A DNA stretch of 51,209 nt from Sporolactobacillus vineae DSM 21990 = SL153 (GTDB lineage: Bacteria > Bacillota > Bacilli > Bacillales > Sporolactobacillaceae), in the NCBI RefSeq assembly GCF_000377985.1, contig NZ_KB899054.1, positions 1-51,209 on the forward strand, given 5' to 3'. The notes beneath the pieces were generated by a model. It was not told where the DNA came from. It worked only from the letters and a program-made list of their open reading frames with translations, and made no database searches. Below, in pieces: positions 5,842 through 23,645 of this stretch (positions are counted from its first letter, which is position 1; the number at the start of each line of letters is the position of its first letter). The position numbers and the translations under genes are program-made.

Positions 5842-6642
5842 TTAAGCCAGAAGATTCAGCGCCGCAAGTCCGGCTGCAAGGGCCAGGAGTGCAAGCATAC
5901 TGATCGTATCCCGGCCCCGCCAGTGCAGCTGGCGGAATGACGACCTTCTGGCTTCGGCGCGATAACCGCGGACATCCATGACATTCGCCAGTTCTTCGCC
6001 GCGGTTCAGTGAGCTGGCAAACAGCGGAAGAAAGATTGGAACGAGTACCTTCATCTGATGGAACAGAGATCCTTCGCCGAACACCGCACCACGTGCCCGC
6101 TGCGCATCCATGATCTTCTGCGTCTCGTCAAGCAGATTAGGAATAAAGCGCAGGGCAATCGATACCATCATCGACAGTTCGTCGACCGGAACGTGAAATA
6201 AACGGAGCGGACGCATCAGAAAAGTCAGGCCGTCCGTCAGATCGACCGGCCTGGTCGTCAGTGTCACGACGGTAGTAAAGAAGATAATCGTCACGAACCG
6301 GGAAAAAATGAAGACGGCCGTCTCAATGCCGAAGGAGGACACAGTAAATGGACCCCATTCGACATATGTTCTCCCTCCGGAAATAAACAGAATCTGCAGG
6401 AGCACCGTGAACAGAATCAGCCAGATCAGCGGCCGGACGCCGCGAAGGTAGATCCGGAAACCGACACCGGAGAGCGCCATGGCAAGGAATGTGAACAGCC
6501 AAAGAAGAACCAGGCCTGGAACATTCCCCGCCAGAAAAGCAATCAGAATGAAGGCAATCGCAGCGACCAGTTTCGCCCGCGGATCCAGATGATGAATCAG
6601 CGAATTACCGGGAAAGTACCGGCCAAGAATCAGTTTGTTCAT
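5842..6642 (-). CDS. ecfT: EcfT-type transmembrane subunit of an ECF transporter (probable FmnA)
   Basis: The membrane scaffold that joins an S-component to the two Ecf ATPases. The 266-residue protein begins LILGRYFPGNSLIHHLDPRAKL, typical of EcfT, and has several hydrophobic segments. The coupling-helix Ala-Arg-Gly signatures are present in MDAQRARGAVFGEG and MDVRGYRAEARR. It is the last gene of the leftward FLEET operon and overlaps ecfA2 by 4 bases. In Listeria, as I recall, a FLEET-encoded EcfT paralog called FmnA is used to move flavin outward for FMN attachment; the position here suggests the same role rather than general vitamin uptake. No S-component such as RibU is present in the window. 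Confidence 0.88.
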   Translation of the reverse strand: MNKLILGRYFPGNSLIHHLDPRAKLVAAIAFILIAFLAGNVPGLVLLWLFTFLAMALSGVGFRIYLRGVRPLIWLILFTVLLQILFISGGRTYVEWGPFTVSSFGIETAVFIFSRFVTIIFFTTVVTLTTRPVDLTDGLTFLMRPLRLFHVPVDELSMMVSIALRFIPNLLDETQKIMDAQRARGAVFGEGSLFHQMKVLVPIFLPLFASSLNRGEELANVMDVRGYRAEARRSSFRQLHWRGRDTISMLALLALAAGLAALNLLA

Positions 6643-7496
6643 ACCCGTCCCACCTTAATCAGTGCTTCGGCCAGCTCTTCTTCGGTCAGGCAGACGCCCG
6701 GCAGTGCCACTCCGGAGTGCTTCTCCAGTTTCAGCTGAAATCGCCTGGCCTCCGGAAGATCCAGATCCCAATCCTTCAATCGTGCCGGGTCCGTAAACAG
6801 CCGGCGCACCGAATCGTGAAACACAATTTTACCTTTGACAAGTACGACCGCCTGCTGCGCATACCGCGCCACACGATCCATGTCATGGGTCACCAGCACA
6901 ATGGTCATGCCGTAATCACGATTCCATCGGGTCAGCAGATTGAGAATCTCGCTCTGCCCGTCAGGATCGAGTCCCGCGCAAGGTTCATCCAGCAGCAAAA
7001 TGTCCGGACGGCAGGCCAGTATTCCGGCGATGGCGACGCGCCGTTTCTGGCCCCCCGACAGGGAGAAGGGGGATTTGCTGAGAAACGTGCGGTCAAGCCC
7101 CACCTGACCGATCACATCTGCGGCAATGGTGCATGCTTCTTCAGCAGTTGCGCCGAAATTCAGCGGACCGAAACAGATGTCCTTCTCGACTGTTTCCGCA
7201 AAAATCTGCGACTCCGGGAACTGAAAGACCAACCCGACTCTTTTGCGGACCGCTTTTAAGGTTTTCTTATCGGCGCCCTTCCGGACAACAAGCTGACCGA
7301 TTACGGCCTGACCTTCTTCCGGAAGGATGAGCCCATTCAGTACTTTCATCAGACTCGATTTCCCTGCCCCGGTCGGGCCGACCACGGCCGTGAACGAACC
7401 GGAAGCAACCGTCAGATTGATATGATCCAGCACCAGCGGGCTGCGAATCGGCCCAATCTGGTAATCTGCAGTAACACCACTTAACTTTATTTCCAT
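6639..7496 (-). CDS. ecfA2: ECF transporter ATPase EcfA2
   Basis: The second ATPase of the ECF module. It has 285 residues with Walker A GPTGAGKSS, Q-loop VFQFPESQIF, signature SLSGGQKRRVAIAG, Walker B ILLLDEPCAGLD and the switch His in VTHDMDRVA. The phrase FPESQIFAETVEKDICFGP is characteristic of EcfA2. Transcription order is ecfA1-ecfA2-ecfT with overlaps at both junctions, as in the usual ecfAA'T operon. Here the operon is attached to electron-transfer genes instead of the ribosomal-protein/truA context usual in Bacillus. Confidence 0.93.
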   Translation of the reverse strand: MEIKLSGVTADYQIGPIRSPLVLDHINLTVASGSFTAVVGPTGAGKSSLMKVLNGLILPEEGQAVIGQLVVRKGADKKTLKAVRKRVGLVFQFPESQIFAETVEKDICFGPLNFGATAEEACTIAADVIGQVGLDRTFLSKSPFSLSGGQKRRVAIAGILACRPDILLLDEPCAGLDPDGQSEILNLLTRWNRDYGMTIVLVTHDMDRVARYAQQAVVLVKGKIVFHDSVRRLFTDPARLKDWDLDLPEARRFQLKLEKHSGVALPGVCLTEEELAEALIKVGRV

Positions 7497-8299
7497 AACC
7501 AGTCGACCATTTCTTCTTCCGTCATATACTGATCCGGCGCCCGGCGCCCTTTTGCCAGCAGGATCCGTCTCAGGCGCTCACTGAACGGTGCCCCAAGATC
7601 CTTCTCTGTGCTGAAGATCTGCCCGGGCGTTCCGTCGTTGACAATTTTACCATCCTGCATCACCAGAATCCGGTTGCTTGCCGCCGCCTCATCCATATCA
7701 TGGGTGATCGACAGAATGGTCAGATGCGTCGCTTCGGCGAGCCGGCGCAATGTGCTGAGCAGATCGCGTCGGCTTTTCGGATCGAGCATCACGAAGGCTT
7801 CGTCGAGGATCAGGATGTCCGGCCGCAGCGCAAGAATGCCGGCAATCGCCACACGCTGTTTCTGACCGCCGGAAAGTCGGGAGGGGTCGGCCTGACGAAG
7901 GCCGGACAGACCGACCAGCTTCAGTGCTTCGGCCACCCGCACTTTCATCTGCGCCACCGGCATGTTCTCATTTTCCAGGCCAAACGCCACGTCGTCTTCC
8001 ACCGTCGTACCGATAAACTGGTTGTCCGGGTTTTGAAAAACGATGCCCATATGGCGGCGAAGCGCCCATTCGGATGTTTCATCAAGCATCTGCCCGTTAA
8101 TACGTATGGATCCTGACTGCGGTTTCAGCAGACCGACCAGGAGCCCGGCAAGCGTCGACTTGCCCGCTCCGTTTCTGCCGATCACCGCAAGCCATTCCCC
8201 GCGCGAAACAGAAAAAGTCACCGAGGACAGGGCGGACTTTTCTCCCCGCCCCCGATACGTATAGGAAAGGTTTCTGACCTCAATCATCGGTTCACTCAT
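7487..8299 (-). CDS. ecfA1: ECF transporter ATPase EcfA1
   Basis: The first ATPase of the ECF module, 270 residues. It shows Walker A GRNGAGKST, Q-loop VFQNPDNQFIGTTVEDDVAFG (the usual EcfA1 form), signature LSGGQKQRVAIAG, Walker B ILILDEAFVMLD and switch His ITHDMDEA. Walker B reads DEAFVMLD where many have DEATSMLD, a mild variation. GGGAG lies upstream of the ATG. The gene starts 17 bases after dmkA1 and overlaps ecfA2 by 10 bases, so all three Ecf genes should be co-translated with the quinone and flavin genes. Confidence 0.93.
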   Translation of the reverse strand: MSEPMIEVRNLSYTYRGRGEKSALSSVTFSVSRGEWLAVIGRNGAGKSTLAGLLVGLLKPQSGSIRINGQMLDETSEWALRRHMGIVFQNPDNQFIGTTVEDDVAFGLENENMPVAQMKVRVAEALKLVGLSGLRQADPSRLSGGQKQRVAIAGILALRPDILILDEAFVMLDPKSRRDLLSTLRRLAEATHLTILSITHDMDEAAASNRILVMQDGKIVNDGTPGQIFSTEKDLGAPFSERLRRILLAKGRRAPDQYMTEEEMVDWLWK

Positions 8300-8316
8300 A
8301 GATGTAAAACTCCCGT

Positions 8317-9255
8317 TCAGAAGATTACGGCAACCAGCAGTAGAAAGGCAATGGCTGCATTGATCAGCACCAGATTTTTTACCGCAACAACAAATGTCTT
8401 TGACTTCACCTGCATCACGTTAAACTGTCGCACCAGCTTATAGACCGGCAAGATGATCAGAACAGCCAGCAGCAGAACCGGCGGCAGGATTCTCAGCAGA
8501 ACGGCAATCAGAATGGCGGCAAAAGAGCCGGCATACAGACCGTCAAACAGCCAGAGCGCATACTTTTTTCCAATATAGTAAACCAGGGTAAAGCGGTTGT
8601 TCTTAATATCGTCGTCGAGATCGCAGATATTATTGGCCAGCATCAGGTTGGCAATGGTGAACACGCAAGGCAGCGACACCAGAACGATTTCAACCAGATG
8701 CAGAATGTCCGCCCGCAGCACAACGATCCGCCCCTGCCAGATAAGATTGACAATGCCCTCATCATAAGCGTTCGCATAGACAGTCAGAAACAGAATGCCG
8801 AGTCCCATCGTGACGCCTGAGAACAGTTCGCCGAGCGGCATCCGCGAAAGCGGGATCGGACCGAATGAATACAGGATCCCGATGGCAAAACACACCATGC
8901 CGGCAAGCAGAACGACCAGATCGGTTCGTACCACCAGCGAGATGCCCAGGACCGTCGCGATGGCAACGAGGCTGATGATCGTGAAAACGACCAATCCTTC
9001 CGGGATGTTCTGCCGGCTGATGATATTCTCCCGGCGCCGGTACTCGTCGCTTGTCGCTTTTCGGTAATCCATATAATTATTGATGGCGGTTGTTGCCATG
9101 TCAAATAAAAGCATAGAAGCAAAGAAAATCAACGTATTGAGCAGATTAAAAGTATGATACCGATAGGAAACGAACAGGCATCCGATGAGAAACGGAAACA
9201 GGCTGGCCAGTTTCGTCCGGATCTCAACCAGGTTCAGAAATGCCCCAAACGACAT
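8317..9255 (-). CDS. dmkA: UbiA-family 1,4-dihydroxy-2-naphthoate prenyltransferase, copy 1
   Basis: A membrane enzyme that joins a polyprenyl chain to 1,4-dihydroxy-2-naphthoate to give demethylmenaquinone, the EET quinone in Listeria (DmkA). The 312-residue protein has the two Asp-rich metal/diphosphate motifs of UbiA enzymes: INNYMDYRKATSDEYRRREN and NNICDLDDDIKNNRFTL. About eight hydrophobic helices are visible. It is preceded by GGAGGCG and follows its tandem paralog after 16 bases. The partner polyprenyl chain would come from dmkB (15621-16607). Having two copies side by side is unusual; see findings. Confidence 0.9.
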   Translation of the reverse strand: MSFGAFLNLVEIRTKLASLFPFLIGCLFVSYRYHTFNLLNTLIFFASMLLFDMATTAINNYMDYRKATSDEYRRRENIISRQNIPEGLVVFTIISLVAIATVLGISLVVRTDLVVLLAGMVCFAIGILYSFGPIPLSRMPLGELFSGVTMGLGILFLTVYANAYDEGIVNLIWQGRIVVLRADILHLVEIVLVSLPCVFTIANLMLANNICDLDDDIKNNRFTLVYYIGKKYALWLFDGLYAGSFAAILIAVLLRILPPVLLLAVLIILPVYKLVRQFNVMQVKSKTFVVAVKNLVLINAAIAFLLLVAVIF

Positions 9256-9271
9256 GCATCACGCCTCCAGT

Positions 9272-10210
9272 TCAGAAGATCACAGCCACAAGCAGTAAAA
9301 GGACAACGGAAGAATTCATCAGCACCATACTTTTCAAAGCCACGACAAATGTATTTGATTTGCTCTGTACCCGGTTAAATTGCCGGACCAGTTTGTAGAC
9401 CGGAATGACCGTAAGCACGGTCAGGAGCAGGGCCGGCGGTAAAATGTGCAGCAGAACAGCGAACAATATGGCGGCGAACGAAGCTGCATACAGACTGTCG
9501 AACAGCCAGAGTGCATACTTTTTTCCAATATAATAAACCAGGGTAAACCGCTTGTTCTTAATGTCGTCGTCCAAATCGCAGATATTATTCGCCAGCATGA
9601 CATTAGCGATCGAGAACATGCACGGCACAGAAACGAGACCAATTTCAAACAGCGGCCAGATGTCCGCTTTAATGATCACGATCCATCCTTGCCAGATTAG
9701 GTTGGCAATGCCTTTATCAAAAGCATTGGCATAGACCGTCAGAAACAGAACGCCAAATCCTTCGGTCACTCCTGAAACGATTTCGCCAAGCGGCATCCGC
9801 GAAAGCGGGATGGGTCCGAACGAATACAGGATTCCGATGGCGAAGCACACCATACCGGCCAGCAGGACAACCAGATCGGTTCGCACCACCAGCCAGATGC
9901 CGAGAGCGGTCGCCACCGCGACAAAACTGATGATCATGAAGACGACCCGTCCTTCGGGGATGTTCTCCTGTCCGATGATGTTCTCCCGGCGCCGGTACTC
10001 GTCACTTGTCGCTTTTCGGTAATCCATATAATTATTGATCGCCGTAGCCGCCAGGTCGAACAGCAGCATTGAACTGAAGAAGATCAATATATTAACCGGC
10101 TGAAAAGCATGAAACCGATAATAGGCAAACAGGCATCCGATGAGAAAAGGAAACAGGCTGGTCAGTTTCGTCCGGAATTGAACCAGTTTCAGAAACGCTT
10201 CCAGTGACAT
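9272..10210 (-). CDS. dmkA: UbiA-family 1,4-dihydroxy-2-naphthoate prenyltransferase, copy 2
   Basis: The same length (312 residues) and architecture as the downstream copy, with about three quarters identity by eye. The Asp-rich motifs are retained (INNYMDYRKATSDEYRRREN, NNICDLDDDIKNKRFTL), so both copies look catalytically able. Differences cluster in loops and in the C-terminal helices (MVLMNSSVVLLLLVAVIF here, LVLINAAIAFLLLVAVIF in copy 1). It lies 27 bases after fmnB in the leftward operon. This is a tandem duplication; the two could differ in chain-length or naphthoate-substrate preference. Confidence 0.9.
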   Translation of the reverse strand: MSLEAFLKLVQFRTKLTSLFPFLIGCLFAYYRFHAFQPVNILIFFSSMLLFDLAATAINNYMDYRKATSDEYRRRENIIGQENIPEGRVVFMIISFVAVATALGIWLVVRTDLVVLLAGMVCFAIGILYSFGPIPLSRMPLGEIVSGVTEGFGVLFLTVYANAFDKGIANLIWQGWIVIIKADIWPLFEIGLVSVPCMFSIANVMLANNICDLDDDIKNKRFTLVYYIGKKYALWLFDSLYAASFAAILFAVLLHILPPALLLTVLTVIPVYKLVRQFNRVQSKSNTFVVALKSMVLMNSSVVLLLLVAVIF

Positions 10211-10237
10211 GAAAAACGCCTCTTCTCTCTCCGTCTT

Positions 10238-11305
10238 TTATTTACCTGGCGCATTAGGCATCAGATGAAACGATTTGTCCGTCAGTTCAAAATTCTTTTT
10301 AAGCCCGGAAGTCACGTATACTTTTCTGCCTTTGGTGACAAAAATCGCATCCACGCCTTTCAGTTTCTCTGCTAAACGGAATCCGCCTTTAACACCGCCG
10401 ACGAACAGGACATTCGACAATGCATCGCCGTCGACAGACTTCTTTGTAATGACGGAAACACCGGCAATATCATTATCCAGCGAATAACCGGTGAACGGAT
10501 TCAGAATATGCTGATAGACCTTGCCGTCGACTTTAAGATACCGTTCATAGATACCGGCTGTAACAATCGATTTATTCGTCTCATTGATTTTACCGACGAT
10601 ATCTCCGCGCGGCAGGAACGGGTTCTGAATGCCGACGCCCCATTCCTGATCAGTCGGACTCATCCCTTTTACATAAATGTTCCCGCCCAGATCAACGATC
10701 GCGGAATGAACATGATAGCGATCCAGAACTTTAACCAGTTCATCGGTGATAAAGCCTTTGGCAATGCCGCCCAGGTCAAGGCGCATTCCCTTTTGTTTCA
10801 GAAACACCGTCTGCTTCTGATCATTCAGAATCATTTTTTTATAACCGATCAGCGGCAGTGTCTGGTTGATTTCCTTCTGCGACGGTTTGCGGGCATCCGG
10901 GAAACCGATGTGCCAGAGCTTGGTCATCGGACCGATGGTGATGTCGAAGTAACCGTCCGACATCTTTGCATAGCCTTTGCCCAGCTGGATCATGTGATAA
11001 ATATCTTTGGAAACCTTTACTGGACGGATTCCGGCATTGGCGTTTACCCGGTCGATATCCGACCGGTTCGACTTATCTTCCACAGTCACCGCACCGGCAA
11101 GATCTCTCAGGCGCTGAATCACCGGTTTGAGCACGTCTGCTTTGCCTTTATCATAAATTCTGATGGTATTGATGGTCCCCATCAGGTAGACTGTCTGACT
11201 CGCCGGATCACTGTTGATCACCGGTTTTACAGTCTGAGCTTTCGGCTGACAGCCGGTTAGAATCAGTGCCATGCTCAGCAGCAGAATCATGATGTTCTTT
11301 TTCAT
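10238..11305 (-). CDS. fmnB: FmnB, lipoprotein FMN transferase of the ApbE family
   Basis: A surface-anchored flavin transferase that attaches FMN from FAD to Thr residues of exported proteins, here most likely PplA. The start is taken at MKKNIMILLL, because the 13 codons before it do not fit a signal peptide. The lipobox LTGC gives the lipidated Cys19. ApbE hallmarks are present: the Asp/Gly segment LDLGGIAKGFITDEL, IVDLGGNIYVKG and the metal-binding GDALSNVLFVGG. The length of 355 residues is typical. It is the second gene of the leftward FLEET operon, separated from pplA by a strong hairpin that may set their ratio. Confidence 0.93.
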   Translation of the reverse strand: MKKNIMILLLSMALILTGCQPKAQTVKPVINSDPASQTVYLMGTINTIRIYDKGKADVLKPVIQRLRDLAGAVTVEDKSNRSDIDRVNANAGIRPVKVSKDIYHMIQLGKGYAKMSDGYFDITIGPMTKLWHIGFPDARKPSQKEINQTLPLIGYKKMILNDQKQTVFLKQKGMRLDLGGIAKGFITDELVKVLDRYHVHSAIVDLGGNIYVKGMSPTDQEWGVGIQNPFLPRGDIVGKINETNKSIVTAGIYERYLKVDGKVYQHILNPFTGYSLDNDIAGVSVITKKSVDGDALSNVLFVGGVKGGFRLAEKLKGVDAIFVTKGRKVYVTSGLKKNFELTDKSFHLMPNAPGK

Positions 11306-11390
11306 AGGAATCAGCCCTTCTTCAGTGTGTCGGCTGACAGCCAACGCAGTTCTTCTAATTATGAGTTAACCTCAAGTGGCGCTGATGACA

Positions 11391-11429
11391 ATAAAGACTT
11401 TAGAGCCGGCAAAGCCCTAAAGTCTTTAT
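11391..11429 (-). terminator. intercistronic hairpin between pplA and fmnB
   Basis: Perfect 13-bp arms ATAAAGACTTTAG and CTAAAGTCTTTAT enclose a 13-base GC-rich loop. On the minus strand the stem is followed by TGTCATC, not a U-run, so termination is probably partial. It could be an mRNA-stabilising 3' structure that raises the abundant lipoprotein PplA above the enzymes encoded downstream. Confidence 0.65.
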
Positions 11430-11456
11430 GCGAGGATCATCTTTGTTCACAGACGA

Positions 11457-12389
11457 TTATTTTTCCTTGAAGACGAGGTTATCCACTTCAATCGGAGTTG
11501 TATCGCCCTTCTGCGCTGCGTTGATCAGCTGTGCCGCATAAGCTTTAAATGCTTCGGTCGATTCTGTCGCGCCGGAAACCGCCGCTACACCGGCTGCATT
11601 CTGACTCTTGACCAGGGATTTTTCGAGAGCCGGAATATATTCTTTCGGTCCGACGCCCGATTTCGCCTTCATGGCTTTTTCATAAGCCGCATTTTCTGAT
11701 TTCTTCTTGCCGTTTTTGTCAAGGAAGTTATAGTCTACTTTGGTGATTTTGCCGCCCTCGACCGTCATATTGATGTACTGCTTCCAGCCGTGGCTGTCGA
11801 AATTCTTTTCAGCTAATTTATAAAGGCCGTCTTTCAGTTTGCCTTCCGCATTGACGGTGATCGGTGACGTGTCACCCTTCTGTGCCGCCTGAATTAATTG
11901 CTGTGCATAGTTGATGAAGGTGCTCGACGATTCGGTTGCGCCGGAGACGACGGCAACCTGTTTTGCATCCTGTGCGGCAACCAGAGCCTGATTCAGTTTC
12001 GGGATGTATTCCTTCGGTCCGACGCCCGATTTCGCCTTCATGGCTTTTTCATAAGCGGCGTTTTTCGACTTCAGCTGGCCCTGCTTATTGACGTAGTTAT
12101 AATCTGATTTAGTGATCTTGCCGTTTGCAACCGTGATCGAGAATTGAACCTTCCAGCCGTGCGTATCAAAGCCGGTCTCCTTTAATGTATACGTTCCGTC
12201 CTTGAGTGCGCCGCCGGCAACCTTTGTTGAAGCGTTTGCAGTTGAGCTGCTGCTGGCTGCGCTTGAGCTGCTCGAACTGGACGAACCGGCCGCTTTACTG
12301 CTTGATCCGGATCCCGAACCGGCGGCACATGAAGCAAGAATCATGGTGAATAAGATGGTCATGACGAGAGCAAATTTTTTCATGTTCAT
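11457..12389 (-). CDS. pplA: PplA-like lipoprotein with two FMN-binding (flavinylated) domains
   Basis: The terminal extracellular electron carrier of the FLEET system. The signal peptide ends with lipobox LASC (lipidated Cys21). A Ser-rich linker (~22-58) would span the wall, followed by two FMN-binding domains (~62-170 and ~185-295). Each carries the flavinylation motif SGATES, with target Thr152 and Thr275. The domains share KAMKAKSGVGPKEYIP word for word, and the DNA is also nearly identical there (11637-11690 and 12007-12060), so the duplication is recent or kept by gene conversion. The start is taken at MNMKKF, with AAGGGGGAAG upstream. Transcription probably begins near 12447, next to the palindrome at 12423. 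Confidence 0.92.
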   Translation of the reverse strand: MNMKKFALVMTILFTMILASCAAGSGSGSSSKAAGSSSSSSSSAASSSSTANASTKVAGGALKDGTYTLKETGFDTHGWKVQFSITVANGKITKSDYNYVNKQGQLKSKNAAYEKAMKAKSGVGPKEYIPKLNQALVAAQDAKQVAVVSGATESSSTFINYAQQLIQAAQKGDTSPITVNAEGKLKDGLYKLAEKNFDSHGWKQYINMTVEGGKITKVDYNFLDKNGKKKSENAAYEKAMKAKSGVGPKEYIPALEKSLVKSQNAAGVAAVSGATESTEAFKAYAAQLINAAQKGDTTPIEVDNLVFKEK

Positions 12390-12422
12390 CGTTGAAGCTT
12401 CCCCCTTTATCTGTGTCCCATT

Positions 12423-12440
12423 TTGTGAATTCATTCACAC
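12423..12440. promoter_or_regulatory. Rex/Fnr-like operator 1 in front of pplA
   Basis: TTGTGAATTCATTCACAC fits the Rex consensus TTGTGAA-N4-TTCACAA at 17 of 18 positions and also the Fnr/Crp form TGTGA-N6-TCACA exactly. It lies just downstream of a minus-strand -10 (TATGAT, complement of 12454-12459), where a bound protein would block transcription of the pplA operon. Which regulator uses it cannot be decided from the sequence. Confidence 0.6.
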
Positions 12441-12490
12441 CTTCTACATACACATCATAGCACTGAAAACGTTTCATGTTTGTAACCATA

Positions 12491-12594
12491 TTGTGAACAA
12501 TATCTCAAAGTCTGAAACTGATTCCCTGATTCATCTAGACACTCTGCAGTCTGTGGTGCTATATTTGATTCGGGTATTGTTCATAATTTCACAA
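12491..12594. promoter_or_regulatory. Rex/Fnr-like operators 2 and 3 between pplA and ndh2
   Basis: Site 2 (12491-12508, TTGTGAACAATATCTCAA) and site 3 (12577-12594, TTGTTCATAATTTCACAA) each have one perfect half-site and one 5-of-7 half-site of the Rex pattern, at the same spacing as site 1. Three related sites in one 250-bp divergent promoter region suggest redox control of both FLEET operons. Confidence 0.45.
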
Positions 12595-12684
12595 TCTTTA
12601 ATTTTCCTACTCTTTCAGCCTTATTAAGTGGTTTATACATTATTTGTGTAAGCGTTTGATTACATCGATGGGGAGGCAAAAGTT

Positions 12685-14568
12685 ATGGCTGATAAAAACA
12701 TTGTGATTATCGGTGCCGGATTTGCCGGTGTTCACGCTGCAAAAAAGCTGGCAAAAAAATACAAGAAAGATGATTCCGTCACCATCACGCTAATTGATAA
12801 ACATTCATACAGCACGATGATGACTGAGCTTCATGAGGTCGCCACACATCGGGTTGAGCCGGATGCCATTCGGTTTGATCTGCACAAACTGTTCGGCCGC
12901 TCCAAGGTCCGGCTGGTGACGGACAAAGTGACACAGATTGACCGGGAACAGAAAACAGTCATCACGGAATCCGGAAAATTTTCATATGATTATCTGATTC
13001 TCGGCATCGGCGGAGAACCGAATGATTTCGGCACACCCGGTGTCAGGGAACACGGTTTCACCCTTCTGTCGTGGGAGGATGCGGTAACCCTGCGGACGCA
13101 CATTGAACGGATGGTCCGGGAAGGTGCTGCCGAACTTGATCCGGAGAAGCGGCGGGCCATGCTGACGTTTGCGATTTGCGGATCAGGCTTCACCGGCGTG
13201 GAAATGATCGGCGAACTGCTCGAATGGAAGCGGCGGCTGGCAAGAGTTAACAGACTGAATGAGGATGAAATTTCGCTGTATCTGGTTGAGGCAGTTCCTA
13301 CTATTCTAAACATGCTTGACCGGAAAGACGCGAACAAAGCCGAGGGCTATATGGTACGGAAGGGTATTCAGATTCTTAAGAGTTCCCCGATCGTTGAAGT
13401 AAAAAACGACCGTATTGTCCTGAAGTCCGGACAGGAACTGCCGACGTACACGTTAATCTGGACGGCCGGTGTCCGGGCCAATTCGGATGCCAAAGCGTTC
13501 GGTCTGGCATCCGCCCGCGCCGGACGTCTGAAAGTCAATGAATATATGGAAGCCGAAGGGCAGGAAAATATATACGTTGTCGGCGATCTCTCCTATTATG
13601 AGGACGGCGGCAAACCGACGCCGCAGATCGTCGAAGCAGCCGAACAGACCGCCGGCACTGCGGCAAACAATATTATTGCGGCGATCAGCGGCGGTGAGAA
13701 AACGGCTTTCAAAGGGAACTATCACGGTGTGATGGTGTCGATCGGCGCACGCTACGGGGTCGCCAATATTAAAGGCATGCATCTCAGCGGCTTTTTTGCC
13801 AACTTTATGAAACATATGGTGAACCTGTTCTATCTTTTCACGATCAGAAGCGGCTATTATCTTTTCCAGTATGTGATGCACGAATTTTTCCACACCAGAG
13901 ACAAGCGGAATATTTTCCGTGATCTGCCGTCGCGTTACGGAAACGTGCTCTGGTCTCTACCGCTGCGTGTTTTCGTCGGCGCTTTCTGGCTTGTGGAGGC
14001 TTTTTCGAAGATTTGGGGGGCGAGCGTCTGGGATAAAGCCACGTCGAGCTGGTCCAATGTCTATATGCTGTTCCGCGGAATCGGCAAGGATTCCTGGTTC
14101 GTCGGTAATTCCGTCAAAATGCCTTTCAGCTGGCTGCAGACAGCAACGTCCGGTGCCAGTCAGTCTGCCGGAGATACAGCCTCCGCAGCCTCGCAGTTCG
14201 GAACACCGATTCTTCATAAAATGCCCGGATGGTTTGAGTGGATCATGAGAATTCTGCTGCCGAACGCAGGATTTGCCGTGTTCATGCAGCGCCTGATGCT
14301 TTTTATCGAACTGGGTATCGGCCTGGCAATCATGTTCGGTCTGTTCACCTGGCTGTGCAGTGCGGCGAGTGCCGGATTCATCGTTATGTTTTTCTTCACA
14401 GCTATGCTTGGCTGGGGCGACGTCTGGGTATTTCCTGCATCGATCGCCCTGCTGAACGGCGCCGGACGTACTGTCGGCTTCGACTACTGGGTCGTTCCGC
14501 TGCTTCAGAAGTGGTTCGGGCGGCTCTGGTACGGTCGTTCAAAATCGGTCTATAAAGATGAAAAATAA
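12685..14568 (+). CDS. ndh2: Ndh2, type II NADH dehydrogenase with C-terminal membrane extension (FLEET type)
   Basis: Oxidises cytosolic NADH and reduces the demethylmenaquinone pool dedicated to extracellular electron transfer. The 627-residue protein has an N-terminal FAD motif GAGFAG (10-15), the NAD motif GSGFTGVEMIGEL and the second FAD strand IYVVGD. The core ends near residue 400. The rest carries membrane segments (FVGAFWLVEAFSKIWG, MQRLMLFIELGIGLAIMFG, FIVMFFFTAMLGWGDVWVFP) that resemble DoxX-like helices and are absent from ordinary ~400-residue Ndh2. The long form is that of Listeria EET Ndh2. The ribosome site GGGGAGG lies 9 bases upstream. It is the first gene of the rightward operon. 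Confidence 0.93.
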   Translation: MADKNIVIIGAGFAGVHAAKKLAKKYKKDDSVTITLIDKHSYSTMMTELHEVATHRVEPDAIRFDLHKLFGRSKVRLVTDKVTQIDREQKTVITESGKFSYDYLILGIGGEPNDFGTPGVREHGFTLLSWEDAVTLRTHIERMVREGAAELDPEKRRAMLTFAICGSGFTGVEMIGELLEWKRRLARVNRLNEDEISLYLVEAVPTILNMLDRKDANKAEGYMVRKGIQILKSSPIVEVKNDRIVLKSGQELPTYTLIWTAGVRANSDAKAFGLASARAGRLKVNEYMEAEGQENIYVVGDLSYYEDGGKPTPQIVEAAEQTAGTAANNIIAAISGGEKTAFKGNYHGVMVSIGARYGVANIKGMHLSGFFANFMKHMVNLFYLFTIRSGYYLFQYVMHEFFHTRDKRNIFRDLPSRYGNVLWSLPLRVFVGAFWLVEAFSKIWGASVWDKATSSWSNVYMLFRGIGKDSWFVGNSVKMPFSWLQTATSGASQSAGDTASAASQFGTPILHKMPGWFEWIMRILLPNAGFAVFMQRLMLFIELGIGLAIMFGLFTWLCSAASAGFIVMFFFTAMLGWGDVWVFPASIALLNGAGRTVGFDYWVVPLLQKWFGRLWYGRSKSVYKDEK

Positions 14569-14613
14569 TCAGCTTTACTGAGATGCATCTAACACTGAAG
14601 GAGGGGACGACAA

Positions 14614-15033
14614 TTGGCCCGCTATCTTAAAATGATCCGGCCATGGGATATTATTATCGTCTGCGTCCTGGTTCTGATCTCCTTCCTTCCGGTCGGAATG
14701 TTCAGCTATGTCCATGCACGGGAAGCAGGGAATGCTTCCTCACGACTGATCGCCGTTGTCAGCCTCAACAACAAGCAGATCCGGCAGGTCGTGCTGACCG
14801 GCAATACAAAAACCGAGGAATTTACGGTCTATACGAAGAGCGGCGACTACAATACCATTGAAGTAAACAAGAACCGGATCCGTATTAAAAAAGCAAATTG
14901 TCCGGATCAGATCTGCGTGCGGACCGGATATATCTCTGAACCCGGGCAAACCATTGTCTGTCTGCCCCACAGAGTGGTGATCGAGATACACCGGGCCGAC
15001 AGATCCGAAGCTCCGGTTATTGTCAGTTCGTGA
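14614..15033 (+). CDS. eetA: EetA, NusG domain II-like membrane protein
   Basis: A small protein of the FLEET locus that, with EetB, carries electrons from quinol toward the outer face; the exact mechanism is not established. The 139-residue protein starts with TTG (AGGAGGGG 8 bases upstream). One membrane helix (~12-30) is followed by an extracytoplasmic NusG-II fold with Cys96, Cys101, Cys116 and His119 (NCPDQIC...IVCLPH), possible cofactor ligands. Its stop TGA lies directly before the eetB region. Confidence 0.9.
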   Translation: MARYLKMIRPWDIIIVCVLVLISFLPVGMFSYVHAREAGNASSRLIAVVSLNNKQIRQVVLTGNTKTEEFTVYTKSGDYNTIEVNKNRIRIKKANCPDQICVRTGYISEPGQTIVCLPHRVVIEIHRADRSEAPVIVSS

Positions 15034-15060
15034 ATGGATAAGATTCAGGAGATGGGCACG

Positions 15061-15594
15061 TTGACAAAAAATCAGCAGACGGCTTATATTGCATTACTCG
15101 CTGCTCAGGCAGTGGTTATCAGCCTGCTGGAACAGGCAATCCCGTTCCCGTTTCCTGTCGCACCCGGTGCCAAACTGGGGCTGGCCAACATTATCACCTG
15201 CATGGCACTGTATACTCTGACGACCAGAGATACGGCCAAAGTCATTGCCATCCGGCTGATTCTTGCCTCTCTGCTGAGCGGTACGATGTCGACGTTTATG
15301 TATAGTGCTTCCGGAATGATCCTGAGCTTCACCGGAATGTGGCTGGTAAAAAAGCTCGGGCCGCGGCGTGTCAGCCTGATCGGCGTCAGCGCTGCCGGCG
15401 CGATTCTGCATAATGTCGGCCAGTTGATTGTCGCCAGCTGGATTGCGCAGACCTGGACCGTGATGCTTTATCTGCCGATACTTTCCCTTGTGGGTATCCT
15501 TGCCGGCCTGGCAACAGGAATCATGGCTAACTACCTGCTCACTCATGTAGAAAAGCTGCAATACTATAAATATTTACAGGAAACCGAACACTGA
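15061..15594 (+). CDS. eetB: EetB, Gx-family membrane protein
   Basis: An integral membrane partner of EetA, of the family often named Gx transporter or heptaprenyl diphosphate synthase component I. I take TTG at 15061 as the start: AGGAG lies 9 bases upstream, and the protein then begins LTKNQQTAYIALLAAQAVVI, as relatives do. An ATG at 15034 in the same frame, directly after the eetA stop, has no ribosome site of its own. Five or so hydrophobic segments include VAPGAKLGLANIITCMALY, the family signature. Length 177 residues is usual. Confidence 0.88.
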   Translation: MTKNQQTAYIALLAAQAVVISLLEQAIPFPFPVAPGAKLGLANIITCMALYTLTTRDTAKVIAIRLILASLLSGTMSTFMYSASGMILSFTGMWLVKKLGPRRVSLIGVSAAGAILHNVGQLIVASWIAQTWTVMLYLPILSLVGILAGLATGIMANYLLTHVEKLQYYKYLQETEH

Positions 15595-15620
15595 CAACCA
15601 AGAGAAAGGAGGGGAAGCAG

Positions 15621-16607
15621 ATGCGCGTACACCCGATGTGGGATGCCTATCCGGAGCTAAAAGAAGATCTGATCCGCGTGCTCCAGGTGATTGAATCCCA
15701 TATCCGGATCCACGACCAGGCGATTGAACAGAGAATCAGAAAGTACATCAACACGTCCGGAAAGATGCTTCGTCCCGCATACACCATACTCTGCTCGGAG
15801 ATCGGTCCCGAACCTGATAAAGAGCGGGCGATAGCGGCCGCCGCGGCAGTCCAGTGCCTGCATATGGCCACACTGATTCACGACGATGTGATCGATCAGT
15901 CGGACACGCGGCACGGACAGAAGACGTTTAACGCGGAATATGGAAATAAAGTGGCGATTTACGCCGGAGACTATTTGTTCAGTCTGACATTCTCCATTCT
16001 CGGACCCTACGCATCCGAATCGTCGGTTCCCCGCCTGAGTTTCAAGCAAATAGAAGCGGATAAAATACTGGCCGGGGAACTCGAACAGCTTCACGCCCAA
16101 TATCGGACACCGGCTTCAGTGAAGCATTATCTGTCGCAGATTTCCGGGAAGACGGCCCAGCTGTTTGCGATCAGCTGCTATGCCGGGGCCGGGGTCGGGA
16201 AGAGCAGCCAGAGCGATGCATCTCACGCCTGGAATATGGGGCATGATATCGGCATGGCCTTCCAGATCATTGATGATATACTGGATTATCAGGGAACGCA
16301 AAATGTGCTGGGAAAGCCGGTTATGAACGACTTCCGAAGCGGGATTTATACATTGCCGGTTCGGATTGCGATGATGGCCGAACCCGAGTTTTTCCGCCCG
16401 CTTCTCGACAAGAAGGGGAACCTGACTGAGAACGATCTGACTGCCGTTCAGGAGGCCATTGCCCGGAATCACGGCATTGAAAAAGCGATGGATCTTGCGC
16501 GAAAATATACACGTAAAGCGCTGAAAGAAATGGACGCGCTCCCGAGCGGGGGTTATAAAAAGGTCCTGAACCGGCTGTCGCGTTCTCTACTGGAGCGAAA
16601 GATGTAA
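15621..16607 (+). CDS. dmkB: DmkB, trans-polyprenyl diphosphate synthase
   Basis: Builds the polyprenyl diphosphate tail for the EET demethylmenaquinone. The 328-residue protein has both Asp-rich motifs of trans-prenyltransferases: the first in HDDVIDQSDTRHG (Asp88, Asp89, Asp92) and the second in FQIIDDILDYQGT (Asp218, Asp219, Asp222), plus the Lys-Met-Leu-Arg-Pro isopentenyl site (GKMLRP). The ribosome site AAAGGAGGGG is strong. It is the last gene of the rightward FLEET operon and is followed by a clear terminator. Heptaprenyl is the likely product by homology with menaquinone enzymes, but chain length is not readable here. Confidence 0.93.
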   Translation: MRVHPMWDAYPELKEDLIRVLQVIESHIRIHDQAIEQRIRKYINTSGKMLRPAYTILCSEIGPEPDKERAIAAAAAVQCLHMATLIHDDVIDQSDTRHGQKTFNAEYGNKVAIYAGDYLFSLTFSILGPYASESSVPRLSFKQIEADKILAGELEQLHAQYRTPASVKHYLSQISGKTAQLFAISCYAGAGVGKSSQSDASHAWNMGHDIGMAFQIIDDILDYQGTQNVLGKPVMNDFRSGIYTLPVRIAMMAEPEFFRPLLDKKGNLTENDLTAVQEAIARNHGIEKAMDLARKYTRKALKEMDALPSGGYKKVLNRLSRSLLERKM

Positions 16608-16634
16608 TCTCCTGATTTTCAGAAGGTATATTCG

Positions 16635-16682
16635 AAGAGCTGCTGCTTCACTTGTCGATGTGGTGAAACAGCAGCTCTTTTT
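16635..16682 (+). terminator. terminator of the ndh2-dmkB operon
   Basis: AAGAGCTGCTG plus TTCAC pairs with GTGAA plus CAGCAGCTCTT around a 9-base loop with one bulged position, followed by a U-run. Confidence 0.88.
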
Positions 16683-18509: not shown

Positions 18510-18656
18510 TCTTTCGGTCTACAGCGGGATGTTTTCGGTCTTCAGGCTGCTGTTTTCGGTCTTCAGCGTGATGTTTTCGGTCTTCAGGCTGCTGTTTTCG
18601 GTCTTCAGCGTGATGTTTTCGGTCTTCGCGCTTCATTTATCGGCCTTCGCGAATTT
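18510..18656. repeat. seven 21-bp tandem repeats, TTTTCGGTCTTC core (array B)
   Basis: Units start at 18510, 18531, 18552, 18573, 18594, 18615 and 18636. Units 2-5 begin GTTTTCGGTCTTCAG and end alternately in GCTGCT and CGTGAT, giving a perfect 42-bp higher-order repeat. The outer units are diverged. The array lies between the 5' end of the aldolase gene and the flavin reductase stop, starting about 110 bp upstream of the aldolase ATG. Because 21 is divisible by 3, it stays open in several frames, but no ribosome site supports a protein. Confidence 0.92.
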
Positions 18657-19132
18657 CAGCCGCCATAATAAAAACCTGTCTCCTTCATCGTCAGCGGATC
18701 GCCCTTACGATGTACACCGGCATCAATCACTTTGCCGATATAGGTAAAATGATCCCCTTTTTCAACCTGATCAATGACCTCGCACTCAAAATAACTGAGC
18801 GCATCCTTAAAAAGCGGACAGCCGGTTGTCCCGGTCGCAAATTCGTACCCGGCAAGCTTATTGCCTTCCGGTTCGAGTGCCCGGAAAAAGGCCGTGACCA
18901 TATCTTTCTGTCCGGCTTCCAGCACATTGACACTAAAAACGCGGCTTGCTGCAATCTGTTTCTGCGAACGGGTTCCGGCTTTGACAGCCAGAGCAACCAG
19001 CGGCGGTTCAAACGATGTCTGTGTCAGCCAATTGCCCGCAAACGCGTTCACCCCGCTGTCATCTTTTGTGCCTACAAGATATAAACCATAAGTAATGCCG
19101 CGTAAAGCGGTCTTTTTTGCCTGCGTATCCAT
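18656..19132 (-). CDS. FMN-dependent flavin reductase family protein
   Basis: A small flavoprotein of the flavin reductase (DIM6/NTAB, HpaC-like) family that uses NAD(P)H to reduce FMN or FAD. The 158-residue protein has the FMN-binding elements VNAFAGNWLTQTSFEPPLVALAV and SRVFSVNVLEAGQ and the C-terminal GDHFTYIGKVIDAGV. GAAGGGG lies 8 bases upstream of ATG. It is monocistronic. Its physiological partner is unknown; placement near the flavin-rich FLEET locus is suggestive only. Confidence 0.87.
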   Translation of the reverse strand: MDTQAKKTALRGITYGLYLVGTKDDSGVNAFAGNWLTQTSFEPPLVALAVKAGTRSQKQIAASRVFSVNVLEAGQKDMVTAFFRALEPEGNKLAGYEFATGTTGCPLFKDALSYFECEVIDQVEKGDHFTYIGKVIDAGVHRKGDPLTMKETGFYYGG

Positions 19133-20575: not shown

Positions 20576-21598
20576 TTATTTAATATAAGGACTGCTCAAG
20601 AAACTGTTGAAACTTGGCACTTGCTGAATGTAACCAAGATTCTTTAGAAATTTACCGTTTTGTTCCGCGCTGTAATAAAATGATTTAAATGTATTTCCTT
20701 TTTTATAGTATTGCTTATTTGCATCAACCGACAGGAGGTGGAATCCGTCAATGCCCTGTTTGAGTTCAGCGGGCGTAATACCTGCATCCTTAGCCACAAT
20801 TTTAATCGATTCCTGCGGATGTGCTTTGTAATAATTCATCGCATCAAACCAGGCATCAGCAATGTTTTTCACATCCTGAGGTCTATTCTTCATAACATTG
20901 CTGTTCATGACCAGCATGTCTGGAATCAGTCCAGGATAACTCTTTGATGAGGCAATCTTTGTTCCATGACCCTTGGTTTGTGCCTCAGTCAGAGAAGGTT
21001 CCCAGAGCGCCGCCGCATCAAGTTTACCGGCAATAAATGCGTTACCGGAATCCTGCACGGTCATATTTGTCAGATGAATATCTTTTTCAGTCATCCCGTT
21101 ATCTTTAAGCAAAGTAAGCAGGAAGAAGTGTTCAATGGTTCCGACTTCGGTTGCTACTTTCTTCCCTTTAAGGTCTTTGACAGATTTGATACCCGGTTTG
21201 GCAACAATGCCATCACCACCGGCTGAATAGTCGGTCGCAAAAACCGATTTGATCGGCACACCCTTTGACAGAGGGGAGATACAGTCGATCAGTGCTTCAC
21301 TGTTCCCATCTACTTTACCCGCATTCAGCGCTGAAATGGAATCACTGTATGTCGGGAAATACACGAGTTTGACATTAACATGATGCTTCTTGAAGAATCC
21401 TTTATCACGGACAAGATACCAGAAATACCAGCTGGGAAGAGGGCTTAAAGCAATTTTAATTGGCGTTTTTGAAGAGGATGATGAAGACCCGGAAGTTGAG
21501 CTGCTGTTTGCTGATGAGGCACCGCAGGCCGTCAGTGACAGAGCCAGCAGACACGCCATAAGTATACTGAATATCTTAATCCATCTGGAATGTTTCAT
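20576..21598 (-). CDS. ABC transporter substrate-binding lipoprotein, probable guanidine uptake
   Basis: The extracytoplasmic binding protein of an SsuA/TauA/NMT1-type importer. The signal peptide ends in lipobox LTAC (lipidated Cys25), then a Ser-rich linker. The 340-residue protein has the family features SWYFWYLVRDKGFFKKHHV and AALWEPSLTEA. It is the third gene of a leftward operon (permease-ATPase-binding protein) controlled by a guanidine-I riboswitch, which is the reason to propose guanidine or a guanidine derivative as ligand instead of sulfonate, taurine or nitrate. The riboswitch evidence is strong; the ligand is inferred. Confidence 0.85.
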   Translation of the reverse strand: MKHSRWIKIFSILMACLLALSLTACGASSANSSSTSGSSSSSSKTPIKIALSPLPSWYFWYLVRDKGFFKKHHVNVKLVYFPTYSDSISALNAGKVDGNSEALIDCISPLSKGVPIKSVFATDYSAGGDGIVAKPGIKSVKDLKGKKVATEVGTIEHFFLLTLLKDNGMTEKDIHLTNMTVQDSGNAFIAGKLDAAALWEPSLTEAQTKGHGTKIASSKSYPGLIPDMLVMNSNVMKNRPQDVKNIADAWFDAMNYYKAHPQESIKIVAKDAGITPAELKQGIDGFHLLSVDANKQYYKKGNTFKSFYYSAEQNGKFLKNLGYIQQVPSFNSFLSSPYIK

Positions 21599-21620
21599 TT
21601 CTGATCTCCCCCGTACTCTG

Positions 21621-22406
21621 TTATTTTTTCAGAAGTGATACAATGTAATCCTTCAATTTTAGAAACTCGGCAGGCTTAACTAGTTCACTGCCGTCAAATA
21701 ATCCAAGATCAGCGTTCAATTCATCGGCCAATCTTCCCGGATGAGAATGCATTATATAGATGCGTTGTGACAGAAATATTGCCTCCTCAATGTCATGAGT
21801 AATAAAAACAATGGTGGTTTTCTCGCGCTTCCAGATTTGCAGCAACAGTTGCTGCATGTCGGAGCGAGTCTGCGCATCAAGAGCGCCGAATGGTTCATCC
21901 ATAAGTAGCACTTTTGGATTATTGGCCAGGGCCCGTGCAATGGCTACTCTCTGTTTCATACCACCGGACAACTCTTTGGGATAAGCATTGGCAAAATTCT
22001 CAAGGTTAACCATCTTAAGGAAATAATCTGATATTTCCCTTTTCTGTTTTACGGGCATTTTCTTTAATCTGGGGCCGAATTCAATATTTTTCCGGACCGA
22101 CAGCCAGGGAAACAAAGTATAGGCTTGAAAAACCATTCCACGATCTTCACCAGGACCAGTTATCCCTTCACCAAAGATTTTTGCTTCGCCTTCCGTGAGC
22201 TCGTCCAGCCCTGCCAGAATTTTAAGTAGGGTCGATTTGCCGCAGCCGGATGGGCCGACAATGCTGACAAACTCATGAGGATCAACATGAAGCGACACAT
22301 CGTCAATCGCTTTAATTTCCTTTTTGGTTGTATGATATATTTTTGTCAGGTGCACGACATCAATTGCACGTTGCGCCTCTGTGATGCTTTCTACTTCAGC
22401 TGCCAT
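21621..22406 (-). CDS. ABC transporter ATPase, probable guanidine uptake
   Basis: The ATPase of the same importer, 261 residues. It shows Walker A GPSGCGKST, Q-loop VFQAYTLFPWLSV, signature ELSGGMKQRVAIAR, Walker B VLLMDEPFGALD and switch His FITHDIEEAIFL, which places it with the nitrate/sulfonate/taurine ATPases. Its ATG overlaps the permease stop (ATGA). Regulation is by the riboswitch at 23485-23622. Confidence 0.92.
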   Translation of the reverse strand: MAAEVESITEAQRAIDVVHLTKIYHTTKKEIKAIDDVSLHVDPHEFVSIVGPSGCGKSTLLKILAGLDELTEGEAKIFGEGITGPGEDRGMVFQAYTLFPWLSVRKNIEFGPRLKKMPVKQKREISDYFLKMVNLENFANAYPKELSGGMKQRVAIARALANNPKVLLMDEPFGALDAQTRSDMQQLLLQIWKREKTTIVFITHDIEEAIFLSQRIYIMHSHPGRLADELNADLGLFDGSELVKPAEFLKLKDYIVSLLKK

Positions 22407-23215
22407 TATCGGTCACCTCCGGACCAGGGAAATAGGACTCGTCCCAATAGAACAAAGAGTCGGTCAATAATTAGGCCAAGCAGACCGATGACCAGAATTC
22501 CGACAAAGATGATGTTCGTGTTCATAAACCGTTGTGCCTTCATGATTGAATAGCCAAGTCCGCTGTCGGCCGCAACCAGTTCGGCAACAACGAGATATGT
22601 CCAGGCCCAGCCCATGATCAGCCGTAACGTGATAAACAGTCTCGGCATTAATGCGGGAACAATCACTTTAATCAGGGTGTTCCAGCGCTTGGCACCAAGT
22701 GTATACGCAGCGTAGATCAGATCCTTATTGACGGCTCGCGTATCATCGGCCACCATGATCACCAGCTGAAAAAAGCTGCCGATAAAGATGATCAGAATCT
22801 TGGCAGTCTCACCGATCCCGGCCCATACCATAACTAATGGAATAAATGCCGGCGCCGGCATGTAGCGGATAAATTCACTGAGTGGAATAATGATCGAATC
22901 GGAAAGTTTAAAGGTGCCGGCCAGGATCCCGAGCGGAACGCCGATTACAGCGGCAAGCAGAAAGCCCATAAACACACGGTAAATACTGATGCCGATATCA
23001 TTCCAGTAGCTCCCGGTCGATATCAGCTGAATAAAGGTTGTGAATACAAATTCCGGACTCGGCAGGAATATGCTCTGAATCAGGCTGAGCCTGCATACCA
23101 GATCCCAGATGAGCAGGATTAATACAAAGGTGACAATCGCCCCGGCCCAATACCACTTACTGGGGATGTCTTCACGGATTTTGAAAATTTTGCTCAACTG
23201 CCCTGGTGACTTCAT
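22406..23215 (-). CDS. ABC transporter permease, probable guanidine uptake
   Basis: A membrane subunit of SsuC/TauC type, 269 residues with about six helices and the EAA coupling loop (AAYTLGAKRWNTLIKVIVPALMP). AAGGGGG lies upstream of the ATG. It is the first gene after the riboswitch and is translationally coupled to the ATPase gene. Confidence 0.92.
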   Translation of the reverse strand: MKSPGQLSKIFKIREDIPSKWYWAGAIVTFVLILLIWDLVCRLSLIQSIFLPSPEFVFTTFIQLISTGSYWNDIGISIYRVFMGFLLAAVIGVPLGILAGTFKLSDSIIIPLSEFIRYMPAPAFIPLVMVWAGIGETAKILIIFIGSFFQLVIMVADDTRAVNKDLIYAAYTLGAKRWNTLIKVIVPALMPRLFITLRLIMGWAWTYLVVAELVAADSGLGYSIMKAQRFMNTNIIFVGILVIGLLGLIIDRLFVLLGRVLFPWSGGDR

Positions 23216-23484
23216 CGTAAGTTTTCACTCCCCCTTAGGAAGCTTTGATTTTCATATTACCTGTTCTGAATTTAATTTTACCTTGAGGTCTTGCTCCAGT
23301 TTCTTCCTCATCCAAACGGATTGACGAACCGACTGCATAAAGTATTTAATGATCGGAATATTCCGATATTATATGTGACAACTCCCTTCAGAAACGTTTT
23401 CGGACAAGCACATCGCCCCGAACAACAACTTTTTTACCCAATATTCAATTTTCATTTTTTCGGTTTGAACACCTCCAAAAAATA

Positions 23485-23622
23485 GCAAAAATAAAAAGCC
23501 CTGGAGAGAATTTTAACGATCCAAATTCTCCCGGGCTTTTTTCCCTCCGTGTAAACCTGATCACAGGATCGTCTTCTCTCGGTCCAGGCTTATTAAACGT
23601 CAATAACGGAACCCTAGAAGAC
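23485..23622 (-). promoter_or_regulatory. guanidine-I (ykkC) riboswitch with terminator, ABC transporter operon
   Basis: Read on the minus strand, the conserved aptamer phrases appear in order: CTAGGGTTCCG, CTGGACCGAGAG, ACACGGAGGGA and AAAGCCCGGGAGA. The GCCCGGGAGAATT segment also forms the 5' arm of a terminator whose other arm reads AATTCTCTCCAGGGC, followed by a U-run. Guanidine binding should prevent the terminator and switch the transporter on. The aptamer covers about 23523-23620. Confidence 0.93.
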
Positions 23623-23645
23623 TTTTTGTATGAACTCTTAGTTTC

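Follow-up and report, generated by a model that had tools for sequence, protein, structure and literature searches.

We investigated a 51,209-nucleotide stretch of DNA from Sporolactobacillus vineae DSM 21990 = SL153 (NZ_KB899054.1; hereafter the window), which is the entire contig C13 of a 2.86-Mb genome in 45 contigs, and found that it carries a real and complete gene set for flavin-based extracellular electron transfer (FLEET; EET for extracellular electron transfer). Judging from the sequence and from analogy with described systems, we consider it likely (probability roughly 0.8) that this locus has its own complete exporter of flavin adenine dinucleotide (FAD) of the energy-coupling factor (ECF) type, exports electrons from Ndh2, a dehydrogenase of reduced nicotinamide adenine dinucleotide (NADH), to the lipoprotein PplA, and is probably repressed by Rex. 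The FLEET genes named in an earlier sequence-only reading, including the two ECF ATPase genes that it placed within the locus, were all recovered by family search at or near the positions it had given them.

The genes formed two runs on opposite strands. From the centre outward, the minus strand carried pplA, fmnB, dmkA copy 2, dmkA copy 1, ecfA1, ecfA2, and fmnA, and the plus strand carried ndh2, eetA, eetB, and dmkB; the family search thus placed long Ndh2, ApbE/FmnB, EetA, EetB, DmkA, and DmkB all beside pplA. The same gene order was seen again in relatives, which argues against a chance arrangement. The pplA gene (11457–12389, minus strand; open reading frame listed to 12434) encodes a two-domain flavin mononucleotide (FMN) lipoprotein that scored 428.8 bits against NF041941 (cut-off 325); read by eye, it has a probable true start at 12389 (MNMKK), the lipobox LASC, and two SGATES flavinylation motifs. 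The fmnB gene (10238–11305, minus strand; frame listed to 11344) encodes an ApbE-type FMN transferase (ApbE, 265.6 bits), also a lipoprotein, whose probable true start at 11305 (MKKN) gives a signal and the lipobox LTGC (by eye). The ndh2 gene (12685–14568, plus strand; Pyr_redox_2) encodes a long-form type II NADH dehydrogenase of 627 aa with a membrane extension, which shares 67–68% identity with two counterparts from Listeria (634 and 631 aa).

Three of the four parts of the putative exporter were recognized by family search, structural matches in PDB, and motifs. The product of fmnA (5842–6642, minus strand), the ECF-T (EcfT-type) subunit, scored 144 bits against Pfam CbiQ (cut-off 25) and below the cut-offs of narrower NCBIfam models, and matched the EcfT of the solved ECF complexes 4hzu/4huq with an E-value of about 4e-77. 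The two in-locus ATPases are encoded by ecfA2 (ECF-A'; 6639–7496, minus strand; ECF_ATPase_2, 326.3 bits, 3.7 bits short of the cut-off of 330), which overlaps fmnA by 4 bp, and ecfA1 (ECF-A; 7487–8299, minus strand; ECF_ATPase_1, 334 bits, cut-off 315), which overlaps ecfA2. The Walker A, signature, and Walker B motifs appeared intact by eye in both. The sequence-only reading had found no S-component in the window. RibU-type S-components (PF12822) are indeed absent from this contig, but the statement does not hold for EetB, encoded by eetB (15034–15594, plus strand; Hpre_diP_synt_I, PF07456, 172.6 bits). In Listeria, EetB is described as the export S-subunit, which pulls down FAD, and PplA flavinylation requires EetB, FmnA, and EcfA/A' (PMC9973259). 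A structure model of the window's EetB, built from 23 sequences (mean pLDDT 85.4, pTM 0.81), was compared with PDB by Foldseek, and the best 14 rows were all ECF S-components (probability 0.87–1.00; TM-scores by target 0.44–0.74). The best TM-scores were to TmRibU 5kbw_A (0.68 by query and 0.74 by target length; root-mean-square deviation 3.4). By its modelled fold and by the Listeria precedent, EetB is assigned as the S-component of an ECF FAD exporter, which would place all four exporter parts (S, T, and two ATPases) in the locus. RibU was dropped as a candidate for the missing S-component: ribU lies elsewhere in the genome, and Listeria RibU is an importer without which FAD export proceeds if the cell makes flavin (PMC9973259).

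From these genes we infer the direction of transport, the choice of partners, the Rex control, the attenuation, and the EET activity of the locus as follows. EetB would bind cytosolic FAD, and FmnA together with the ATPases EcfA1 and EcfA2 would drive it across the membrane, where FmnB would draw on it to link FMN to both PplA sites. DmkA and DmkB would make demethylmenaquinone, to which Ndh2 would pass the electrons of NADH; from there the electrons would move on to flavinylated PplA and then to iron or another external acceptor. Rex would repress the locus until NADH rises, and a hairpin after pplA may yield more PplA than enzymes (FmnB and the exporter). The FAD export model on which this draws is called speculative by its own authors (PMC9973259).

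The sequence-only reading suggested that flavin export here may be served by a dedicated machine, a view that depended on whether the in-locus ECF set was the only one in the genome. It was not: another ecfA1-ecfA2-ecfT set with open frames was found at G000:C10:46859-49213, between rpoA-like and truA-/rplM-like genes (named by eye). These two were the only AA' sets in the genome at E ≤ 1e-45, and no third ECF set was found in it at the same cut-off; the in-locus ECF engine and the housekeeping set are thus separately encoded. A set like that on C10, with A1, A2, and T adjoining, was present in 22 of the 22 genomes searched (20 carrying an EET locus, plus two congeners that lack PplA), although one A1–A2 pair among them reads as a single frame and one A2 is short. 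The label "housekeeping" was given by similarity, gene neighbours having been used for the set of the window's own genome only. The single frame (581 aa; L099 628-2373) joins housekeeping ecfA1 and ecfA2 in genome G157 and may be a fusion or a frame error. Two other Sporolactobacillus genomes, G165 and G166 (L119 and L121), carried a third, very divergent ecfA1-ecfA2-ecfT set, and extra matches suggest that others do too.

We annotated 32 stretches, comprising 25 distinct EET loci, five repeats, and two without an EET locus. The placement of the ecf genes was counted with the window included and only for loci whose fmnB side lay in the sequence. Every one of the 13 Bacillales loci contained all three of ecfA1, ecfA2, and fmnA; these were six of Sporolactobacillus including the window, two of Caldibacillus type, one of Bacillus kwashiorkori (fmnA cut by the end of the stretch), two of Bacillus sp., and one each of Lederbergia and Oceanobacillus; L077 ends too early to be counted. 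Both Listeria loci held fmnA alone, as the sequence-only reading had stated for that genus. None of the three genes was present in the six Enterococcus loci or in the two Lactobacillus loci with enough sequence; two more Lactobacillus contigs were too short. The Enterococcus count is at odds with a statement that E. gallinarum encodes fmnA and ecfA/A', which leaves their genomic place unstated (PMC10572741). That statement could refer to the housekeeping set, because the EcfT of Enterococcus is the one closest to FmnA. No A2 match exceeded 51% identity to the in-locus A2 in 40 genomes of the order of E. cecorum (L. grayi included), whereas in-locus A2 proteins shared 56–66% identity with that of the window. 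Genes for a VTT-domain and a macro-domain protein adjoin the locus in L055–L057 as they do in the window; both are absent from L058 and L081, and the macro-domain gene is missing from L077, whose other side lies beyond the sequence. The common flanking genes in some relatives suggest one old site with later changes.

The in-locus and housekeeping proteins also differed at fixed positions (thresholds: 90% in EET rows and 85% in housekeeping rows), with A1 and A2 each having five separating positions and T having two. The coupling motifs of ECF T-subunits dock into the ATPases. The second of them is MEARGY in the genome's own housekeeping protein, with A in 48 of 49 housekeeping rows, versus V-R-G in all 14 EET rows that reach it, including Listeria FmnA (one EET row ends before the motif). 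In A1, the window has DEAFVMLDPKS versus DEATSMLDPEG in the housekeeping copy, and the V and S are fixed in 13 of 13 EET rows. In the Walker A motif of A2, A replaces S and S replaces T in 12 of 12 EET rows.

Phylogenetic trees were built for A1 and A2 jointly (71 rows), for T (39 rows), and for the concatenated subunits (62 rows, 844 columns, LG+G4). The Lactobacillales sample comprised 40 genomes and at least 30 loci, ten of the genomes contributing none; three loci from genomes already included were left out, and one of the ten, G180, was included separately. The joint tree left out the fused 581-aa frame, the concatenated tree left out four sets (the housekeeping set of G157 and the EET, housekeeping, and x sets of G166), and ATPase pieces shorter than 200 aa (the two ecfA2 pieces of L081) never entered the trees. 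In the joint tree, in-locus A1 and in-locus A2 each formed one clade (both 100/100), the former grouping with three Enterococcus housekeeping rows (97/84) and the latter with Enterococcus and Lactobacillus housekeeping rows (95/91). All FmnA, including those of Listeria, fell on one side of a branch in the T tree (93/97, not starred). In the concatenated tree, the EET clade (100/98) joined the housekeeping sets of Lactobacillales other than Listeria (91/100), although those sets by themselves were supported at 77/92 and the program warned of long branches.

In approximately unbiased (AU) tests of groupings chosen after inspection of the trees, local duplication of the genome's own housekeeping set, i.e., EET with Sporolactobacillus housekeeping, was rejected (p = 1e-7), as were EET grouped with the Listeria housekeeping set (p = 0.0013) and a clade of Lactobacillales and Listeria housekeeping sets without EET (p = 0.0018). 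The trees thus indicate that the in-locus engine is one old family that did not arise by local copying of the housekeeping set, and a Lactobacillales origin is favoured but not proven. Another history that the data allow, with an appreciable though less than even probability, is that the engine is an ancient paralogue that split off before the housekeeping sets of Bacilli diverged. EET placed beside the outgroup, a row on a long branch, remained acceptable in the AU tests (p = 0.30), as did housekeeping A1 (p = 0.095) or A2 (p = 0.107) as a single clade without EET, and the modest support of the Lactobacillales housekeeping clade itself points the same way. EET nested with Enterococcus-type Lactobacillales sets likewise passed (p = 0.33). 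Against an early split, all of the best trees that include the ATPases placed EET beside Lactobacillales housekeeping sets, and the clade of Lactobacillales and Listeria housekeeping sets without EET was rejected.

Building on the favoured Lactobacillales ancestry, we put forward, tentatively and with the odds against it, that EET loci of the Bacillales type have an ATP-driven engine reserved for their own FAD export, descended from a Lactobacillales housekeeping set that was captured as an AA'T unit and placed under Rex. In this scenario, EetB would first have used the general ECF engine, as it seemingly still does in three Enterococcus genomes, in which a single AA' set was found (the search covered AA' sets, not second T-subunits). 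The AA'T set would then have entered the locus as a unit, come under Rex, and remained distinct from the set that the recipient already had. Listeria would later have lost the in-locus ATPases, or they never joined there, either of which would explain the shared EcfA/A' of Listeria. If so, Sporolactobacillus and its relatives, but not Listeria, would keep import and export insulated from one another.

Whatever its ancestry, the in-locus engine may, given its residues and placement, be dedicated to FAD export, with RibU and other vitamin importers probably relying on the second EcfA1-EcfA2-EcfT set. The check for ribU proposed in the sequence-only reading located it at G000:C1:309040 (PDB 3p5n, E = 2e-37), among five PF12822 S-component loci over the cut-off elsewhere in the genome. 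These five could use either engine, and the in-locus ATPases and FmnA might accordingly be a redundant second general module that powers not only FAD export but also the import of vitamins by RibU and others. Listeria offers a precedent: its FmnA also serves RibU import, where it can replace EcfT, and its EcfA/A' work in both directions (PMC9973259), so the ECF set of the window may be shared. We nevertheless regard a general module as rather unlikely, given that the in-locus set is found among EET genes in every Bacillales locus counted, forms a clade separate from the housekeeping sets, has distinctive fixed residues (in T, for example, VRG replaces ARG), and coexists with another ECF set whose frames are open.

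Probable repression by Rex until NADH is high is suggested by sites matching TTGTGAAN4TTCACAA with at most two mismatches. The window contains three such palindromes, given without strand, at 12423–12440 (one mismatch), 12491–12508 (two mismatches), and 12577–12594 (two mismatches, with one TTGTTC half). They are the sole sites of this quality in the 51 kb, and all lie between pplA and ndh2. At up to three mismatches, the window has eight sites versus 3.9 expected, a number matched by 2 of 100 shuffles. The whole genome, which has one rex gene, contains five places with at most one mismatch. Besides the intergenic region of the window, these lie before an adhE-like gene (an exact match), between metK- and pckA-like genes, between LysR- and Old Yellow Enzyme-like genes, and before a glycosyltransferase-like gene (all named by eye). 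The adhE gene is a classic Rex target. Across 24 regions, with bounds set by hand and shuffles of single bases, all 14 primary Bacillales regions (including one near-identical pair) had sites with at most two mismatches, as did one of two Listeria regions; the three second ndh2–pplA pairs and the five Enterococcus or Lactobacillus regions had none. In L058 and L081, with 4% and 5.5% of shuffles, the excess was marginal. Weaker three-mismatch sites, also above most shuffles, were present in four of the five regions from Enterococcus or Lactobacillus. Control by CcpA was dropped, since the intergenic region had no match to the cre consensus at up to two mismatches.

The palindromes could instead be Fnr sites, with the locus switched on by lack of oxygen. 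Many sites on the pplA side read ATGTGA-N6-TCACA, and the genome encodes a Crp/Fnr protein (L154) with a C-terminal cysteine cluster, which resembles that of B. subtilis Fnr. This alternative is nonetheless doubtful. A half-site of TTGTTA or TTGTTC, which Fnr should not read, was present in 7 of the 14 primary Bacillales regions, and in all 7 regions, of 13, whose pplA start was callable, the nearest site ends 21–34 bp before that start, a repressor position. Both observations favour Rex as the repressor, and the exact match before the adhE-like gene agrees with them. Repression of fermentation has been reported for the Rex of Listeria (PMC9094743, PMC8389512). In its main text, the second of these papers contains no "extracellular electron", pplA, or ndh2 (PMC8389512), and Rex control of FLEET genes was not found stated in the literature consulted, a weak negative, as the supplementary tables with 48 predicted Listeria Rex targets were not covered. 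As a simple hypothesis, Rex-like operators would explain when fermenting spore-formers switch to electron export.

A 19-pair hairpin lies between pplA and fmnB (within 11384–11436, minus strand; minimum free energy −22.6, z −5.62) and is a possible attenuator or terminator. A stem was seen at this place in 14 of 14 loci folded, with different sequences in Listeria and Oceanobacillus and with a long looped stem, which may be a repeat element, in L061, L062, and L066. Nine of the 14 stems were checked against shuffles and gave z-scores of −4.2 to −8.2, although these are post-selection values, the stretches having been cut around stems already seen. Some loci (L060, L063, and L065) have a U run after the stem. 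From fmnB to fmnA the genes form a tight run with gaps of 16–27 bp or overlaps. Of the two divergent operons proposed in the sequence-only reading, the gene runs on opposite strands stand, but the minus-strand run may not be a single unit: the hairpin suggests attenuation or a split after pplA, and it may thin the transcript so that pplA and the Ecf genes are not one full transcription unit. Another hairpin, with a U-rich tail, lies past dmkB (16634–16680, plus strand; found by folding, not listed by the consensus scan) and is a possible terminator. A scan of the whole locus gave 20 promoter-like sites versus 9.7 in shuffles and 8 terminator-like sites versus 11.2, with neither hairpin among the latter.

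Besides the possible sharing of the ECF set and the Fnr-like protein, several observations weigh against our reading of the locus. The EetB sequence had no match in PDB, for which reason the fold comparison was used, and Foldseek itself gave no match at E ≤ 0.001 (E 0.018 or higher), so the S-component assignment rests on fold and not on sequence. The hairpin of the window has no clear U run and was not listed by the consensus terminator scan, and the promoter scan of the intergenic region found one promoter versus 1.1 in shuffles. PplA was present in only 7 of 15 genomes of the genus, which makes EET a dispensable trait, and in none of 11 others of the family. Among 22 loci, the four best named PplA relatives were Sporolactobacillus genomes. 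In an order sample of 150 genomes, 3 passed the PplA family cut-off; 57 had a match at E ≤ 0.001, and all but those 3 were at 3e-7 or weaker. This patchiness, with a split ecfA2 frame in one relative (L081), might hint at a silent relic, which is very improbable for the window given that all its frames are open and the catalytic motifs, operators, and hairpin are kept. The split gene is the in-locus ecfA2 of G166 (L081 4786-5648); the housekeeping A2 of G166 is also shortened, and a sequencing error in that assembly is thus likely.

Both dmkA copies (8317–9255 and 9272–10210, minus strand), found by family search, encode UbiA/DHNA prenyltransferases with aspartate motifs kept (by eye). They share 78.6% DNA identity and pair together in the best tree (98/97), and the second dmkA of THM19-2 and G166 groups apart (100/100); the doublings hence look independent, in a tree in which 9 of 17 forks are open. 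A third, distant prenyltransferase gene adjoins ribU. The dmkB gene (15621–16607, plus strand; 196.2 bits) encodes a polyprenyl diphosphate synthase. With one enzyme sought per pathway, menB for DHNA (dihydroxynaphthoate) synthesis and ribH for riboflavin synthesis were both present, suggesting that both cofactor precursors are made. The eetA gene (14614–15033, plus strand) encodes a NusG_II domain (114 bits) and includes a stretch with cysteines, NCPDQICVRTGYISEPGQTIVCLPH; in Listeria, deletion of eetA left EET unimpaired (PMC9973259). A flavin-reductase-like protein is encoded at 18656–19132, 2 kb past dmkB. Further along, 20576–31023 is probably a guanidine breakdown locus, in which two Guanidine-I riboswitches (23526–23628, minus strand, and 23940–24043, plus strand) lie between an ABC transporter and genes for two DUF1989 proteins, a biotin-dependent carboxylase, and allophanate hydrolase.

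ECF transporters were known as importers. Genomes with two complete engines, a general one and another in the EET locus, allow a clean genetic test of whether direction is set by the S-subunit alone or also by the T and A subunits, a test that the shared ATPases make harder in Listeria. Sporolactobacillus is used in lactic acid production and would therefore offer convenient test organisms. An ecfA1-ecfA2-ecfT set within an EET operon is itself not new (PMC10373932, PMC9973259). In the literature portions searched, we did not find the separate ancestry of the engine, the gradation from Enterococcus through Listeria to Bacillales, or the recurring Rex-like operators and hairpin.

Compared with known systems, the window shares with Listeria monocytogenes the EET genes of its eight-gene cluster and the EetB S-subunit and FmnA T-subunit of the FAD exporter, but Listeria exports through the EcfA/A' of its RibU importer, whereas the window has both ATPases in the locus and a doubled dmkA (PMC9973259). 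The Paenibacillus isolate Paeni-Cedars has ecfA1-ecfA2-ecfT within its EET operon, like the window (PMC10373932), and a survey of 4,214 genomes found eetB beside ECF-T in 291 and beside ECF-A/A' in 796, with no statement in the text consulted on an accompanying housekeeping set or on the engine's relation to it (PMC9973259). Alkalibacterium pelagium shares ecfA, ecfA', fmnA, and fmnB at similar genome places, as well as eetA, eetB, and an ndh2-like gene, but no pplA was found there and its dmkA and dmkB lie far off (PMC10572741). Unlike the window, L061, L062, and L066 have no dmkA or dmkB matches in their stretches, and L059, L060, and L084 have a second ndh2–pplA pair, without Rex-like sites, beside the EET locus. 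The loci of Caldibacillus, Bacillus kwashiorkori, Lederbergia, Bacillus sp., and Oceanobacillus (L059–L062, L064, L066, and L084) all share with the window the in-locus ecfA1-ecfA2-fmnA and its clades.

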